A stretch of DNA of 64,000 bases from an uncultured Kiritimatiellota bacterium (GTDB lineage: Bacteria; Verrucomicrobiota; Kiritimatiellia; RFP12; DVOR01): the NCBI GenBank assembly GCA_944391085.1, contig CALXSE010000006.1, positions 1-64,000 on the forward strand. The letters are read 5' to 3'. The translations under genes were made by a program, and so were the position numbers. Positions 14,867 to 55,620 of this stretch are shown here, one piece after another. The notes beneath the pieces are model-generated. The model searched no databases, was not told where the DNA came from, and saw nothing but the letters and a program-made list of their open reading frames with translations. Position 1 is the first letter of the stretch, and the number at the start of each line of letters is the position of its first letter.

Positions 14867-16648
14867 TCACAGCGTGGCGAGGGGCACGGGATGCCCGCCG
14901 GACAGGCGCGAGGCCTCGGCGGCGTAGGCCATGGCGTGGGCCTGGATGCTCGCGTGGAAACGCTCGGCGTAATAGGCGGGCGGCAGGGTGCGCAGGGCCA
15001 GCACCCAGTCGCGGAGGAGCCCGTCGTTGCCGACGACGTAGCCGCTCTCGTGCGTGGCGTTGCCGGTGTCGAGTGCGGCGTCCCAGCGGCGGTGCGTGCG
15101 GTCGGAGAAGCGGTAGACGTCGAGCGTGCGGGCGTTCCCGACGATCTCGCCGTCGGTGAGGAAGACGCGGGTCTCGCGGTCGCGGCCCCAGGTGTGGCTC
15201 TCCATGCAGTGCTGGACGGTGACGCCGCCCTCGAAGAGCAGGGTCACGACCTGGTGGTCGACCGCGTCGCTGCCGCAGGCGTAGACGCACCGGCCGTAAG
15301 GGCCCCCGCGGAGCTGGGCCTCGATGGCGGCGGGCGAGGCGTCGGGCAGGGCGTAATGGAGGTCGCGCCCCTCGCGCAGGAGCCTGATGGCCGAATAGGG
15401 GCAGGCGCGCTCGACGGCGGCGGGGCAGTCGAGGCAACGCGCCGCGGCGCCGGCCGGCGCGCACTCGGGGCGGAAGTGGCGAAGCCCGCCGAAGGACTGC
15501 GCCGAGACGCACCGCCGGCCGACCCACCAGGCGAAGAGGTCAAAGTCGTGGCTGCACTTCTGCACGATCATCGGCGTGGACTCGGCGGTATGGCCGAAGG
15601 GCCCGCGGCAGAAGGCGTGCGCGGCCTTGCGGTAGCCCACCGGCTCCAGGTGGCGGATGCTCACCAGGCGCCCGAGCGCGCCGCCGTGGATGAGCGCGGC
15701 GATCTTCTGGTAATACGGCGTGAAGCGCAGGATGTGCCCCACCTGCGCCAGGCGGCCGCTCCCGCGCACCGCCGCGTCGAGCCCCACGCACTCCTCCCAC
15801 GTCGCCCCGACGGGCTTCTCCAGCAACAGGTGCAGCCGCCGCCCCAGCGCCGCCTGCGCCGCCGGGAAGTGCAGCCGGTCCGGCAGCGCCACGATGGCCC
15901 CCTCCAGCCCCGGCGCGTCGAGCGCCTCCCGCCAATCGGCGAAGGCGGCCCCCGGCGGCAACCCCAGCCGCCCGGCCCACCGCGCGCGGAGCGCCGGGTC
16001 GGGCTCCGCCACCGCCGCCACCCGCAGGTCGCCGGGATGCTCGAGCGCCCACCGCGCGTAGACGCCGCCGCGGTAGCCCAGCCCCAGGATGGCCACGGAG
16101 AAGGGCCCGCGGTGGCGCATGGAGAACTCGCACCCGCAGTAGACCTGCCGGTACAGCCCCAGCTCCGCCGCGCGGCGGTTGGAATCCTGGAAGCCGCCCT
16201 GCTTCTTGAAGTCGTAGGGCGCGAAGGCCTCCCCGCCCACCTCGCGCCCGATGGCGTGGAGCAGCGCGCTGCGCTTGTGCGGCGAGACGGTGAGGCTCGT
16301 CGTGAAGGCCGCGCACCCCAGTTCCTCCCGCCGCGCCGCGGCGCGCGCCAGCGAAAAGCGGAAGCACCGCGCGCACCGCGCGCCGCCCTCCCGGCAGTCC
16401 TCGAAACCCTCGGCCACGGCCTCGCGCCAGGCCGCGTGGTCGGGCGCGTCCTCCACCAGCGCGACGCCCTCGGCCCGCGCCAGCCGCTCGGCGGCCTCCC
16501 GGCGGCGCAGGTACTCCGCGTGCGGGAAGAGGTTGGGGTTGAAGAAGAAGAGCACCGGCTCCCACCCGTCCGCCCGCAGCGCGCGCACGCAATGCGACGC
16601 GCAGACGCCGCAACACGTGTGCAGAAGCATCCTCCCCTTCGTTGCCAT
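14867..16648 (-). CDS. Fusion of QueH-type epoxyqueuosine reductase with a Gfo/Idh/MocA oxidoreductase
   Basis: Residues 1 to about 190 are QueH, the last enzyme of tRNA queuosine synthesis. They include HTCCGVCASHC, FFFNPNLFPHAEYLRR, GGARCARCFRFSL, FTTSLTVSPHK, YDFKKQGGFQDS and YRQVYCGCEFS, with all expected Cys pairs. Without any stop the frame continues into a complete NAD(P)-dependent dehydrogenase: VAILGLGYRGGVYARW (Rossmann motif), then LLLEKPVGATWEEC (the EKP motif) and a C-terminal substrate domain with extra Cys residues. An internal ATG at the junction (SMRHRGPF) could allow separate translation. The start at 16648 gives the canonical QueH N-terminus and lies six bases after a -10 box, so the mRNA is probably leaderless. 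The fusion is unusual; a lost stop codon or sequence error is an alternative. Confidence 0.85.
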   Translation of the reverse strand: MATKGRMLLHTCCGVCASHCVRALRADGWEPVLFFFNPNLFPHAEYLRRREAAERLARAEGVALVEDAPDHAAWREAVAEGFEDCREGGARCARCFRFSLARAAARREELGCAAFTTSLTVSPHKRSALLHAIGREVGGEAFAPYDFKKQGGFQDSNRRAAELGLYRQVYCGCEFSMRHRGPFSVAILGLGYRGGVYARWALEHPGDLRVAAVAEPDPALRARWAGRLGLPPGAAFADWREALDAPGLEGAIVALPDRLHFPAAQAALGRRLHLLLEKPVGATWEECVGLDAAVRGSGRLAQVGHILRFTPYYQKIAALIHGGALGRLVSIRHLEPVGYRKAAHAFCRGPFGHTAESTPMIVQKCSHDFDLFAWWVGRRCVSAQSFGGLRHFRPECAPAGAAARCLDCPAAVERACPYSAIRLLREGRDLHYALPDASPAAIEAQLRGGPYGRCVYACGSDAVDHQVVTLLFEGGVTVQHCMESHTWGRDRETRVFLTDGEIVGNARTLDVYRFSDRTHRRWDAALDTGNATHESGYVVGNDGLLRDWVLALRTLPPAYYAERFHASIQAHAMAYAAEASRLSGGHPVPLATL

Positions 16649-16654
16649 GGCCCT

Positions 16655-16663
16655 ATTGTAGCA
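16655..16663 (-). promoter_or_regulatory. Extended -10 promoter giving a leaderless queH-fusion mRNA
   Basis: On the minus strand TGC precedes TACAAT (16660-16655), and AGGGCC (6 nt) separates it from the ATG at 16648. There is no ribosome-binding site. Confidence 0.6.
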
Positions 16664-16688: not shown

Positions 16689-19600
16689 TCAGGGCGCGAA
16701 GGGCGGCAGGGCGTCGATGAGGCGGAGGCTGTCGAGCGAGAGGGTCACCAGGCGCTTGACGAGGTCGGGGATGTGGCGCGGGTTTTCCGGCGCCCACAGA
16801 TTCGGGTCTTTGACGATGCCGCTCTTCGTGTCGGTGCTAATCTGATAGCGGTCGACCGCCCAGTCCAGGGGGCTGCGCCCGTTCACCTGGTAGCGGAAGG
16901 CCTCCTCGGGGATGCCGCGCAGCGTCAGCGTGCCGTTGACGACGAGGGTGGAGCGGTCTTTGCCGCCCTTCCCGCCGAAGCGCATCTTGACGATGCGCGT
17001 GTCGGAGAAGTCCCCCACCTCCTCCAGCGGGTAGGGTTTCAGCGCCTCGTAGTTCAGATGGAGCGCGGCCAACTGCCGCCCGATGTCGGCCGTCCGCCTG
17101 AAGTCCTCGCCGCGCCCCGCCAGCGGGATACGCGGCAGGGACTTCTTCAGGTTCGCCGCGAAGGCCTTCCGATAGCCCGGCTGGTGGAGGAAGCCATAGA
17201 CGTAGTAGAAAATCTCCTCCTTCGTCACCTCCGCCCCATACCGCCGCCGCGCCTGATCCAGAATCCAGTCGCTCACCCCGTCGTGCCGCACCAGCGTCCG
17301 CTTCCCGAAGAGGTCGACGTCCTTCTCCTCATACCAATACAGCGGGAAACATTGGCTCTTGCCGATGAACTCCAAGTCTGGCGTGATGTCCGTTACCAGA
17401 CAACTGAAGTCTTTCGTCACCCCCACGCCGCTCACGCAAATCACCACATTCTCCCCGCGCTCCCCCGTGGGGAAGAGTTTGGGGATTTGGTAACGACGCT
17501 GGTTCCACTTCTTGTCGTAATAGAGCCACTGGTTACTGAATGGACGAAACGCGGCCATGCGCACCTTCTCGTCATGGAAAGCGACTGTTTCTCCCATGAG
17601 TTTTGTCATTGTTGTTTGCAAGAAGTCCTTCTTGAATTGATAACATGAGGCATCTGCACCACTCTTGAGTCCACTGCTATTGACGACAAAGAAGCTTTGC
17701 CCCTCGGCGAATTTCTTCCCCGGCTCAAGTGGGATATAGGCGGCGAAGGTGTCGTTGCGTTGGTTGATCCAGTCGCCGTGGGCGTCGGGGGAGAGGGTCT
17801 GGGCGCCGTCGAGCCATTCCTTGGAGAGGAAGGAGCGGTACATGATGAGGTCGTGGAGTTTCTCCTCGCGGGTCTTGTAGTCGCCGATGTCGCGGTAGTG
17901 GATGGCGGCGTTGCCGTGGTGTTGGCCGTCGGGCAGGCGGACAAGGAGGAGGATGGAGATGGGTGTACGGCTTCCCTCGCCGAAAAGACCGTCACCCTCA
18001 CGTTTACGAACTTCTCCAGAGGTATTGCAATTCCCACGGAGATTATAGCAGTAGATTTCGTCGAACTCGCGGACGAGGCATCTCCGGAAACCGGCACCTG
18101 AGCCGGTGTCAAGCCACCCGCCGTTGGTGATGAAGCAGAGGATCCCGCCGCGCTCATTTTCGATGAGGTCGGAGGACCAACGGAAGGCTTTGATGTAAGA
18201 ATCGTAGAGGGAGTTCTTGTTGGTGGCGGTGGAGTTGGCAACGTAGGTTTCCTCGACGCGTTTTTCGAGGGCGGGGTAGGCCTCGCCCTTGGCGACGACA
18301 TAAGGCGGGTTGCCGACGATGACGGAGATGGGGGCGTTGTTTTGGGCGAGGATGCGCTCAGAGTTCTCGGCGAAGGCGCCGTCGTCCAGGAGGTCGCCGG
18401 GCTTGACCTGGCGCATGCGGAAGGTGTCGGCGAGGACGATGCCGGGGAAGGGGGCGTATCTTTCCTTGCGCCCGGCGCGGTCGTGGAAGACGTTCTCGAT
18501 GTTGACGGCGGCGATGTAGTAGGAGAGGAGGACGATCTCGTTGGCGTGGAGCTCGGCGGCGTATTTGCGGTAGAGGTCGGCGTCGCGGATGAGGGCGAGG
18601 TCTTTCTGGAGGAGTCGGGCGATGAAGGTGCCGGTGCCGGTGAAGGGGTCGAGGATGTGGACGCCCCTGTCGGAGAGGCGGCGGCCGAAGTGGGCGCGGA
18701 GGGCGTCGTCGGCGGAGCGGAGGATGAAGTCGACGGCCTCGATGGGGGTGAAGACGATGCCGAGCTTATCGGCGATGCCGGGGAAGGCTGCGGCGAAGAA
18801 GGTGTCGTAGAGGGTGCGGATGACCTCGAGCTTGCCGTCGGCGCTCCGGATGTCGCCGACGCGGGTTCGGACGTCCTCGTAGAAGTTTTTGAGGGTCTTG
18901 CGGTCTTCGGGGGTGTCGAGGGCGTCGAGGAGGTCGGCGGCGGAGTCGAGTGCGTGGGAGACGGGGTTGTGGGCGGTGAAGCCGTTGGCGCCGAAGAGGG
19001 CGTCGAAGATGGGGCCGGTGAGGCGCTGCTGGACGAGCATGACGCGGGCGTCCTCCTCGGAGACGGCGGCGTAGACGGCGGTCTGGAGGAGTGCGTGGAA
19101 GCGGCGGAAGGCGTCGGCGGCCCTGGGGTCGGCGTCGCAGCGGGCGCGGAGGGCGGCGGTCTGGCGGGCGGCGATGGCGGCAACGTCGGCGGCCCAGCGC
19201 TCGAAGTAGGCGCGGTCGCCGCATTTCTCGACGATGCGGCCGTAGAGGAGGTGGCGGTATTGCTCCAGTTTCTCGGGGATGCGGAGGTCAAACTCGCCCT
19301 GCACGAGGTTTTCGCCGCCAGAAGGCGCGCCGCCCTCGTCGTCGAGCCCCGTGCTGATGGTGATGGCGGGGGGCTCGTCGTCGCCGGGGGCATCGATGAT
19401 GGGCCCGTCGTCGCCGGGGATGGGGGCGGTGGGGTCGATGGTCTCGGATTTGGTGCGGTCGAAGCGGAGTTTGTTGATGGTGGCCTCGAAGCGCTCGTCG
19501 TGGGCGCGCAAGGCGTTGAGGACGGTCCAGACGACGCCGAAGGTGTCGGAGTCGTCGAGGACGGCCTCGGGGGATTTGCCGGCGGGGACGACGACGGGGA

Positions 19601-21410
19601 TGACGATGTAGCCGTAGCGTTTGCCGGGGGCCTTGCGCATGACGCGGCCGACGGATTGGACGACGTCGATCTGTGAGTTGCGGCGGGAGAGGAAGAGGAC
19701 GGCGTCGAGGGAGGGGACGTCGACGCCCTCGGAGAGGCAGCGGACGTTGGTGAGCAGGCGGCAGCCGTCGCCGGCCCCGGCCTTGAGCCAGGAGAGGGCG
19801 TTGCCGCGGTCGAGGGCGCCCATGGCGCCGTCGACGTGCCGGGCGTCGACGCGCAGGGGGGCGTTGAAGCGGGGGTCGGCGGCGAAGCGCCGGAAGAGCG
19901 CGGTGGTGGCCCGGGAGGTCGCGATGGTGCGGCAGAAGGCGACGGCGCGGCGGGCGGGGACGCCGTCGGCGGCGGTGAGGAGGGGGGAATCCGTGAGGCG
20001 CTTGGCGAGGGCGTTGATGCAGCCGAGGAGCTTGACGGCGGTGGTGCGGCCGTCGTCGTTCCGGGATTCGAGGGCCTTGCGCTCGGCGTCGGTGAGGGCG
20101 TCGTAGGGGGAGTCGCCCTCGGGGAGGCTGTCCTCGGGGAGGGTGAGGACGAGGACCTTGTAGTCGGCGAGCCAGCCGTCCTTGACGGCCTGTCCGAAGC
20201 CGATGCGGTAGAAGACCTCGCCGTAGAGCGCGGGGTCGTCCATGGAGCAGATCTGGATGGAGGCCTCCCTGGCCTTTGCCTTGGCGGCGGGGGCGTAGAG
20301 GCGCGGGGTGGCGGTCATGTAGAGGCGGCGGCGGGCAAGGAGGTTGGCGTCGCTGTGGATGCGGACGAAGGCGGGCTCCTTGACGTCGATGGCGCCGGTG
20401 GTGCGGTGGGCCTCGTCGCAGAGGGCGAAGTCGAAGGCGAAGGCCTCTCGGCCCAGTTCCCGCTGGGCCTGTTCGACGGCGCCGATGGATTGGTAGGTGG
20501 AGAAGACGACGGTGAGGTCGCCGGGGTGGGCCGCGCGGAGGGCGCGGATGCGCGCGGCGATGGCCTTGGCGTCGGTGGTGGGCGGGAGGGCGAGGGAGTT
20601 TGGGTTCGCGTCGGGGGCGTCGTCGTCGCTTCCCCGGCGGTGGGCCTTGGCGTCGGAGCAGACGCAGACGGCGCGGAGGGGGCGCGCGGCGTCCTCGCTC
20701 CAGGCGATGAGGGTTTGGTTGAGGAGGGCGATGGAGGGGACGAGGAAGAGGGCAAGGCCGCCCTGCGGGCATTCGTTCTCCAGGATGCGCAGGGCGGTGA
20801 GGGTCTTGCCGGTGCCGCAGGCCATGATGAGCTGGCCTCGGTCGTGGGCGGCGAAGTGTACGTGGGCGGCGTCGCGCGCGGCCTCCTGGTAGTCGCGCAG
20901 GGGGCGCGGCCGGACGAGGGGGCCGTCGGCAAGACCGGCCAGGACGGCCCAGTCGACCGCCCACCCGTCCATCTCGGCGCGCGTGATGAGCTGGACGGGG
21001 ATGGCCCAGCCCACAAGGGTGGCCTCGGCGTGCGGGCCCCAGGCGTCGGTGGAGGCGAAGACCATGCCGTGGTCAAAGGCGCGCGGGGCGCCGTGGAAGG
21101 GGACGGCCTTGCCGAGGGTGGCCAGGAAGGTGTCGACGTCGGGCTTGGAGACGGCGTGGCCCTGGGCGTAGCATTTGGCCTGAATACCATAGAGTTTGCC
21201 GAAGACGTCCTCGGCCACCAGGTCGATGCCGACGTCGTGCCCCCAGCCGAGCTCATTCCAGTGCCACACGTGGCGGAAGCGGCCGCGGTAGACGGGGGCC
21301 CGGAGGAGGATGTTCTTGACGAGCGCCTCGAAGGCCGCCCCCATGGCCGCAAGGTTCCCCTGCGCCTCCTCGCGGAAGCGCGCCAACACTTCATCCAACG
21401 TCATGCCCAT
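16689..21410 (-). CDS. Type ISP-like single-chain restriction-modification enzyme (nuclease-helicase-methyltransferase)
   Basis: The product is 1573 residues, the usual size for LlaGI/LlaBIII-type enzymes. In order: an Mrr-like nuclease domain with D63 and QAK 77-79 (GIDLVAEDVFGKLYGIQAKC); a superfamily 2 helicase with ACGTGKTLTAL near 198, CDEAHRTTG near 332 and QSVGRVMRK; an N6-adenine methyltransferase with DPFTGTGTF near 920 and NPPYVVAKG near 1033; and a C-terminal target-recognition region. Such enzymes methylate one strand of an asymmetric site and translocate to cut unmodified DNA. ATG 21410 is preceded by GGAGA; the frame stays open much further upstream but only through the leader RNA and opposite-strand genes. 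Parts of the recognition region (about 17330-17720 and 17985-18060) are AT-richer than the rest. Expression is probably controlled by the attenuator-like leader. Confidence 0.9.
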   Translation of the reverse strand: MGMTLDEVLARFREEAQGNLAAMGAAFEALVKNILLRAPVYRGRFRHVWHWNELGWGHDVGIDLVAEDVFGKLYGIQAKCYAQGHAVSKPDVDTFLATLGKAVPFHGAPRAFDHGMVFASTDAWGPHAEATLVGWAIPVQLITRAEMDGWAVDWAVLAGLADGPLVRPRPLRDYQEAARDAAHVHFAAHDRGQLIMACGTGKTLTALRILENECPQGGLALFLVPSIALLNQTLIAWSEDAARPLRAVCVCSDAKAHRRGSDDDAPDANPNSLALPPTTDAKAIAARIRALRAAHPGDLTVVFSTYQSIGAVEQAQRELGREAFAFDFALCDEAHRTTGAIDVKEPAFVRIHSDANLLARRRLYMTATPRLYAPAAKAKAREASIQICSMDDPALYGEVFYRIGFGQAVKDGWLADYKVLVLTLPEDSLPEGDSPYDALTDAERKALESRNDDGRTTAVKLLGCINALAKRLTDSPLLTAADGVPARRAVAFCRTIATSRATTALFRRFAADPRFNAPLRVDARHVDGAMGALDRGNALSWLKAGAGDGCRLLTNVRCLSEGVDVPSLDAVLFLSRRNSQIDVVQSVGRVMRKAPGKRYGYIVIPVVVPAGKSPEAVLDDSDTFGVVWTVLNALRAHDERFEATINKLRFDRTKSETIDPTAPIPGDDGPIIDAPGDDEPPAITISTGLDDEGGAPSGGENLVQGEFDLRIPEKLEQYRHLLYGRIVEKCGDRAYFERWAADVAAIAARQTAALRARCDADPRAADAFRRFHALLQTAVYAAVSEEDARVMLVQQRLTGPIFDALFGANGFTAHNPVSHALDSAADLLDALDTPEDRKTLKNFYEDVRTRVGDIRSADGKLEVIRTLYDTFFAAAFPGIADKLGIVFTPIEAVDFILRSADDALRAHFGRRLSDRGVHILDPFTGTGTFIARLLQKDLALIRDADLYRKYAAELHANEIVLLSYYIAAVNIENVFHDRAGRKERYAPFPGIVLADTFRMRQVKPGDLLDDGAFAENSERILAQNNAPISVIVGNPPYVVAKGEAYPALEKRVEETYVANSTATNKNSLYDSYIKAFRWSSDLIENERGGILCFITNGGWLDTGSGAGFRRCLVREFDEIYCYNLRGNCNTSGEVRKREGDGLFGEGSRTPISILLLVRLPDGQHHGNAAIHYRDIGDYKTREEKLHDLIMYRSFLSKEWLDGAQTLSPDAHGDWINQRNDTFAAYIPLEPGKKFAEGQSFFVVNSSGLKSGADASCYQFKKDFLQTTMTKLMGETVAFHDEKVRMAAFRPFSNQWLYYDKKWNQRRYQIPKLFPTGERGENVVICVSGVGVTKDFSCLVTDITPDLEFIGKSQCFPLYWYEEKDVDLFGKRTLVRHDGVSDWILDQARRRYGAEVTKEEIFYYVYGFLHQPGYRKAFAANLKKSLPRIPLAGRGEDFRRTADIGRQLAALHLNYEALKPYPLEEVGDFSDTRIVKMRFGGKGGKDRSTLVVNGTLTLRGIPEEAFRYQVNGRSPLDWAVDRYQISTDTKSGIVKDPNLWAPENPRHIPDLVKRLVTLSLDSLRLIDALPPFAP

Positions 21411-35818: not shown

Positions 35819-35827
35819 TGCTATAAT
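35819..35827 (+). promoter_or_regulatory. Consensus extended -10 promoter giving a leaderless mutS mRNA
   Basis: TGC precedes TATAAT at 35822-35827, and GGGGCGC (7 nt) separates it from the ATG at 35835. An in-frame ATG at 35826 lies within the -10 box itself and cannot be used from this promoter. Confidence 0.7.
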
Positions 35828-55611: not shown

Positions 55612-55620
55612 ATTGTACCA
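55612..55620 (-). promoter_or_regulatory. Extended -10 promoter giving a leaderless lgt mRNA
   Basis: On the minus strand TGG precedes TACAAT (55617-55612), and GCGGCC (6 nt) separates it from the ATG at 55605. The stretch from here to 55790 is GC-rich and holds no gene. Confidence 0.6.

Follow-up and report, generated by a model that had tools for sequence, protein, structure and literature searches.

A QueH protein fused to a Gfo/Idh/MocA-family protein in Candidatus Spyradenecus

One gene in the 64,000-nucleotide stretch of DNA analyzed here (the window) encodes a QueH protein joined in frame to a protein of the Gfo/Idh/MocA family, and the fusion is present as an open frame in 15 of the 17 genomes of Candidatus Spyradenecus (Kiritimatiellae), a genus of uncultured gut bacteria, at 65–91% identity. 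The fusion is genuine and is apparently fixed across the genus. The account that we favor, with moderate confidence, is that this is a genus-wide bifunctional protein in which a normal QueH is tethered to a Gfo copy of changed function. Fusions of two genes that are kept over a whole genus are often a sign of a functional link, and a genus-fixed fusion such as this is one of the better hints of such a link that sequences can give.

The gene is encoded on the minus strand (positions 16648–14867) and consists of 593 codons plus a stop codon; translation gives a single uninterrupted frame with no internal stop, and both the Pfam matches and the 15 genus genomes are consistent with this layout. 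The QueH domain occupies residues 7–178 (16115–16630, minus strand) and matches PF02677 with an E-value of 2.6e-50; its score of 171 bits is far above the cut-off of 23.5, and the match spans essentially the whole domain (positions 1–174 of the 175 in the profile). It contains the motifs CCxxC (residues 12–16), RCARC (91–95), and YCGC (170–173). A short junction, RHRGPF (residues 178–183; 16100–16117, minus strand), was delimited by comparing the fusions across genomes, and leads directly into an NAD-binding Rossmann domain (residues 183–305; 15734–16102, minus strand) that matches GFO_IDH_MocA PF01408 (E-value 2.5e-16) and includes GLGYRG at residues 189–194 and an EKP motif (K278). Behind this, Pfam identifies the C-terminal domain PF22725, with the Gfo/Idh/MocA C-terminal region extending over residues 313–593 (14870–15712, minus strand) and including HDFD (H367). 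Structure prediction for the full chain gave a mean pLDDT of 91.6 and a pTM of 0.76. An earlier sequence-only reading of this DNA had described a complete QueH, with all of its Cys motifs, running without a stop into a complete Gfo/Idh/MocA protein, and that description holds.

The same reading proposed a search of related genomes for this domain order, and named two separate genes with a stop codon at the junction as the finding that would count against a fusion; within the genus no such arrangement was found. The notion that the fusion is an artefact—an assembly error, a missed stop codon, or a frameshift at the junction—is exceedingly improbable and we consider it ruled out, since 15 genomes that are only 65–91% identical are all open through this region. 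Thirteen public contigs carry the open fusion, one under the name Candidatus Spyradenecus faecavium. The fusion was not seen in two genomes of the genus, G003 (84% complete) and G012 (77% complete), probably because they are incomplete. Outside the genus, no match covering both halves was seen among 388 genomes of the phylum, in which the QueH and Gfo homologues are encoded as separate genes.

The junction itself has a simple structure. In the fused proteins YCGCE is followed by [FY]-S-x-R-H-[RK], with the Rossmann motif only a few residues further on. Unfused QueH proteins usually end near the fusion point (a median of 8 residues past YCGC) and unfused Gfo proteins start just upstream of the Rossmann motif GxGxxG, so that two complete proteins appear to have been joined with almost no linker. 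The two were joined in frame a single time, in the genus's ancestor and immediately past the natural end of QueH. Codon 177 is ATG in the window gene, and the possibility that it serves as a conserved, separate start for the Gfo half was considered; it was rejected because, although the codon is ATG or GTG in eight species, it is ATT, ATA, or GCG in the other seven of the 15. There is thus no conserved separate start for the Gfo half, and the two halves would always be produced together.

The N-terminal half has the features of an ordinary QueH, which would reduce epoxyqueuosine to queuosine on tRNA. CCxxC, RCxRC, and YCGC are present in every complete fusion sequence, the copy at L013 being cut by the end of its contig. 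Comparison with the QueH of Thermotoga maritima (structures 7lc5 and 7lc7) shows a full-length match with all of the Cys motifs; the Thermotoga protein has Asp after the CC pair where the fusion has Cys, as do the other QueH proteins compared, and the fusion differs further in bearing a second enzyme on its C-terminus. Assignment of this half rests on sequence, the matches in the structural fold search having all been taken up by the Gfo half. The genus encodes TGT, QueA, and QueC and has one QueH copy per genome, and QueG was searched for in it and is absent, which leaves the fusion as the only epoxyqueuosine reductase detected, in genomes that also encode TGT and QueA. A search of the genus for the queuosine transporter YhhQ found none. 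From its pathway genes, the genus seems to synthesize queuosine de novo, relying on the fusion protein for the epoxyqueuosine step. QueH is known to be able to substitute for QueG (PMC5372724).

The C-terminal half would be a copy of a family of standalone NAD-dependent sugar/polyol dehydrogenases that is common in the phylum. It has the Rossmann domain with GxGxxG and EKP and the matching C-terminal fold that define Gfo/Idh/MocA proteins, and a fold search with the predicted structure matches residues from about 180 to 593 with NAD-dependent sugar/polyol enzymes, its closest relatives by fold, at Z scores of 34 to 37 (36.6 at the highest); the matches include sugar dehydrogenases as well as glycosidases that depend on NAD. 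Levoglucosan dehydrogenase (6a3j), scyllo-inositol dehydrogenase (5yab), oxidoreductive sulfoquinovosidase (8qc6), and glucuronide-3-dehydrogenase (8tdi) all share the fold, each at about 20% identity. In a Gfo tree, the fused copies form one clade (support 100/99) within a subfamily that is common in the phylum, and the stem branch of this clade is longer than in unfused copies. The genus also retains an unfused member of the subfamily that is about 51% identical. A recent duplication of this gene as the source of the fused copy is unsupported, as the fused clade is separate and the two differ at 18 positions that are fixed in both.

Four Cys residues—C405, C408, C416, and C454 (15287–15436, minus strand)—are invariant in all of the fusions and may bind a metal. 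The sequence-only reading had singled out the Cys residues in the C-terminal half as unusual, but the same four are found in 68 of 68 unfused homologues, and they are a feature of the subfamily rather than of the fusion. When the subfamily profile was matched to the nearest solved chain, the match skipped the four-Cys stretch.

The fusion shares GxGxxG, EKP, HDxD, and the four Cys residues with this subfamily; apart from the attachment of QueH, it differs at one otherwise invariant motif, which the sequence-only reading did not mention. All 68 unfused homologues, drawn from the breadth of the phylum, have HxGGD, whereas the 15 fused proteins uniformly have Y-x-x-G-N in its place; in the window gene this is YVVGN (Y537–N541; 15026–15040, minus strand), and the structural model is less certain just before it. 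The motif may contact substrate. The Rossmann motif (GxGxRG), K278 of EKP, and H367 of HDxD, a catalytic-type His, are retained in all 15 fusions. With its cofactor site and its catalytic-type Lys and His retained and HxGGD replaced, the Gfo half probably acts on a substrate other than that of its unfused relatives. A motif that is lost only in the fused copies is also a concrete change that is open to testing.

Loss of HxGGD could instead mean that dehydrogenase activity was lost, with the Gfo half no longer a working enzyme and serving as a structural or oligomerization partner. Absence of the motif from all 15 fusions and the long stem branch are in keeping with this, but we regard it as rather unlikely: none of the fusions departs from GxGxRG, Lys278, His367, or the Cys set, and dN/dS is about as low in the Gfo half as in the QueH half. 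Comparing the window gene with closer relatives gives dN/dS ratios of about 0.1 to 0.3 in both halves, and the values for the two halves against L002 are 0.22 and 0.27. By this measure both halves are under purifying selection, and the Gfo half is not decaying freely.

The sequence-only reading had also suggested that the fusion could tie epoxyqueuosine reduction to a redox partner. In its most direct form, the Gfo half would use NAD(P)H to reduce the iron-sulfur center of QueH. The halves are physically fused, and to our knowledge neither a physiological reductant nor natural partners of QueH have been established. A supply of electrons by the Gfo half is nonetheless very unlikely. Its Cys set occurs equally in unfused homologues that have no QueH, and known Gfo/Idh/MocA enzymes transfer hydride, in either direction, with a carbon substrate that they bind; we know of none that carries a flavin or an iron-sulfur cluster. 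A direct redox link between the halves is possible, but nothing was found in its support: the Cys motif is a trait of the subfamily, gene context is not conserved, and adjacency of the two genes is sporadic elsewhere (see below). The two halves of the bifunctional protein that we favor would carry out independent reactions.

A connection through substrate rather than electrons has more in its favor. Acting after QueH, the Gfo half might perform a redox reaction on the cyclopentenediol of queuosine, on a precursor, or on an attached sugar. The fusion has been retained across the genus, this half has changed at a motif that does not vary among its unfused relatives, and its structural relatives act on sugars and on cyclic polyols such as inositol. 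Set against this, no conserved neighbors of the fusion gene were found beyond its nearest relatives, and in other genomes queH and Gfo genes are neighbors only sporadically—at 1 of 25 queH loci in a broader Prevotellaceae sample—and the Gfo genes there belong to a different subfamily, for which reasons the Prevotellaceae adjacency was rejected as an independent link. We consider such a role in queuosine metabolism unlikely, and a stronger version, in which the changed motif allows a new redox step on queuosine or its precursor that yields an undescribed tRNA base, quite unlikely. If the Gfo half does act on queuosine, it would add an extra step to a well-studied tRNA modification; if it does not, the fusion clearly exemplifies the retention of two unrelated enzymes on one chain.

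Among the papers searched, none dealt with a fused QueH or with the HxGGD motif. Fusions of TGT with queuosine-precursor transporters (PMC11130926) likewise join a queuosine enzyme to a second protein, but involve TGT rather than QueH and have transporters as partners. A second QueH fusion was seen in one genome of the Prevotellaceae sample, at L154 (970–2142, minus strand), where the QueH frame continues into a 5-formyltetrahydrofolate cyclo-ligase domain in a protein of 391 amino acids; the C-terminus of QueH thus accepts other partners.

Four Prevotellaceae loci (L089, L092, L103, and L104) have a separate Gfo/Idh/MocA gene, of the different subfamily, directly behind queH. At L122 and L124, in a related genus, a Gfo-type protein with a GH109 match and a twin-arginine-like signal is encoded near queH. 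Upstream of the fusion gene and on the same strand (16689–21410, minus strand) is a type ISP restriction-modification enzyme of 1573 amino acids, with nuclease, helicase, methylase, coupler, and specificity domains.

Six bases upstream of the start codon of the fusion gene is a TACAAT sequence (16655–16660, minus strand) that resembles a −10 promoter element, suggesting a separate promoter for this gene. TAHAAT occurs 15 times in the window, and five of these sites—at 35822 on the plus strand and at 55617, 33032, 27641, and 16660 on the minus strand—are followed by an ATG no more than 15 bases downstream, and in each of the five TG directly precedes the hexamer. The recurring TG-TAHAAT-ATG pattern suggests that extended −10 promoters with very short leaders are used in this genus.
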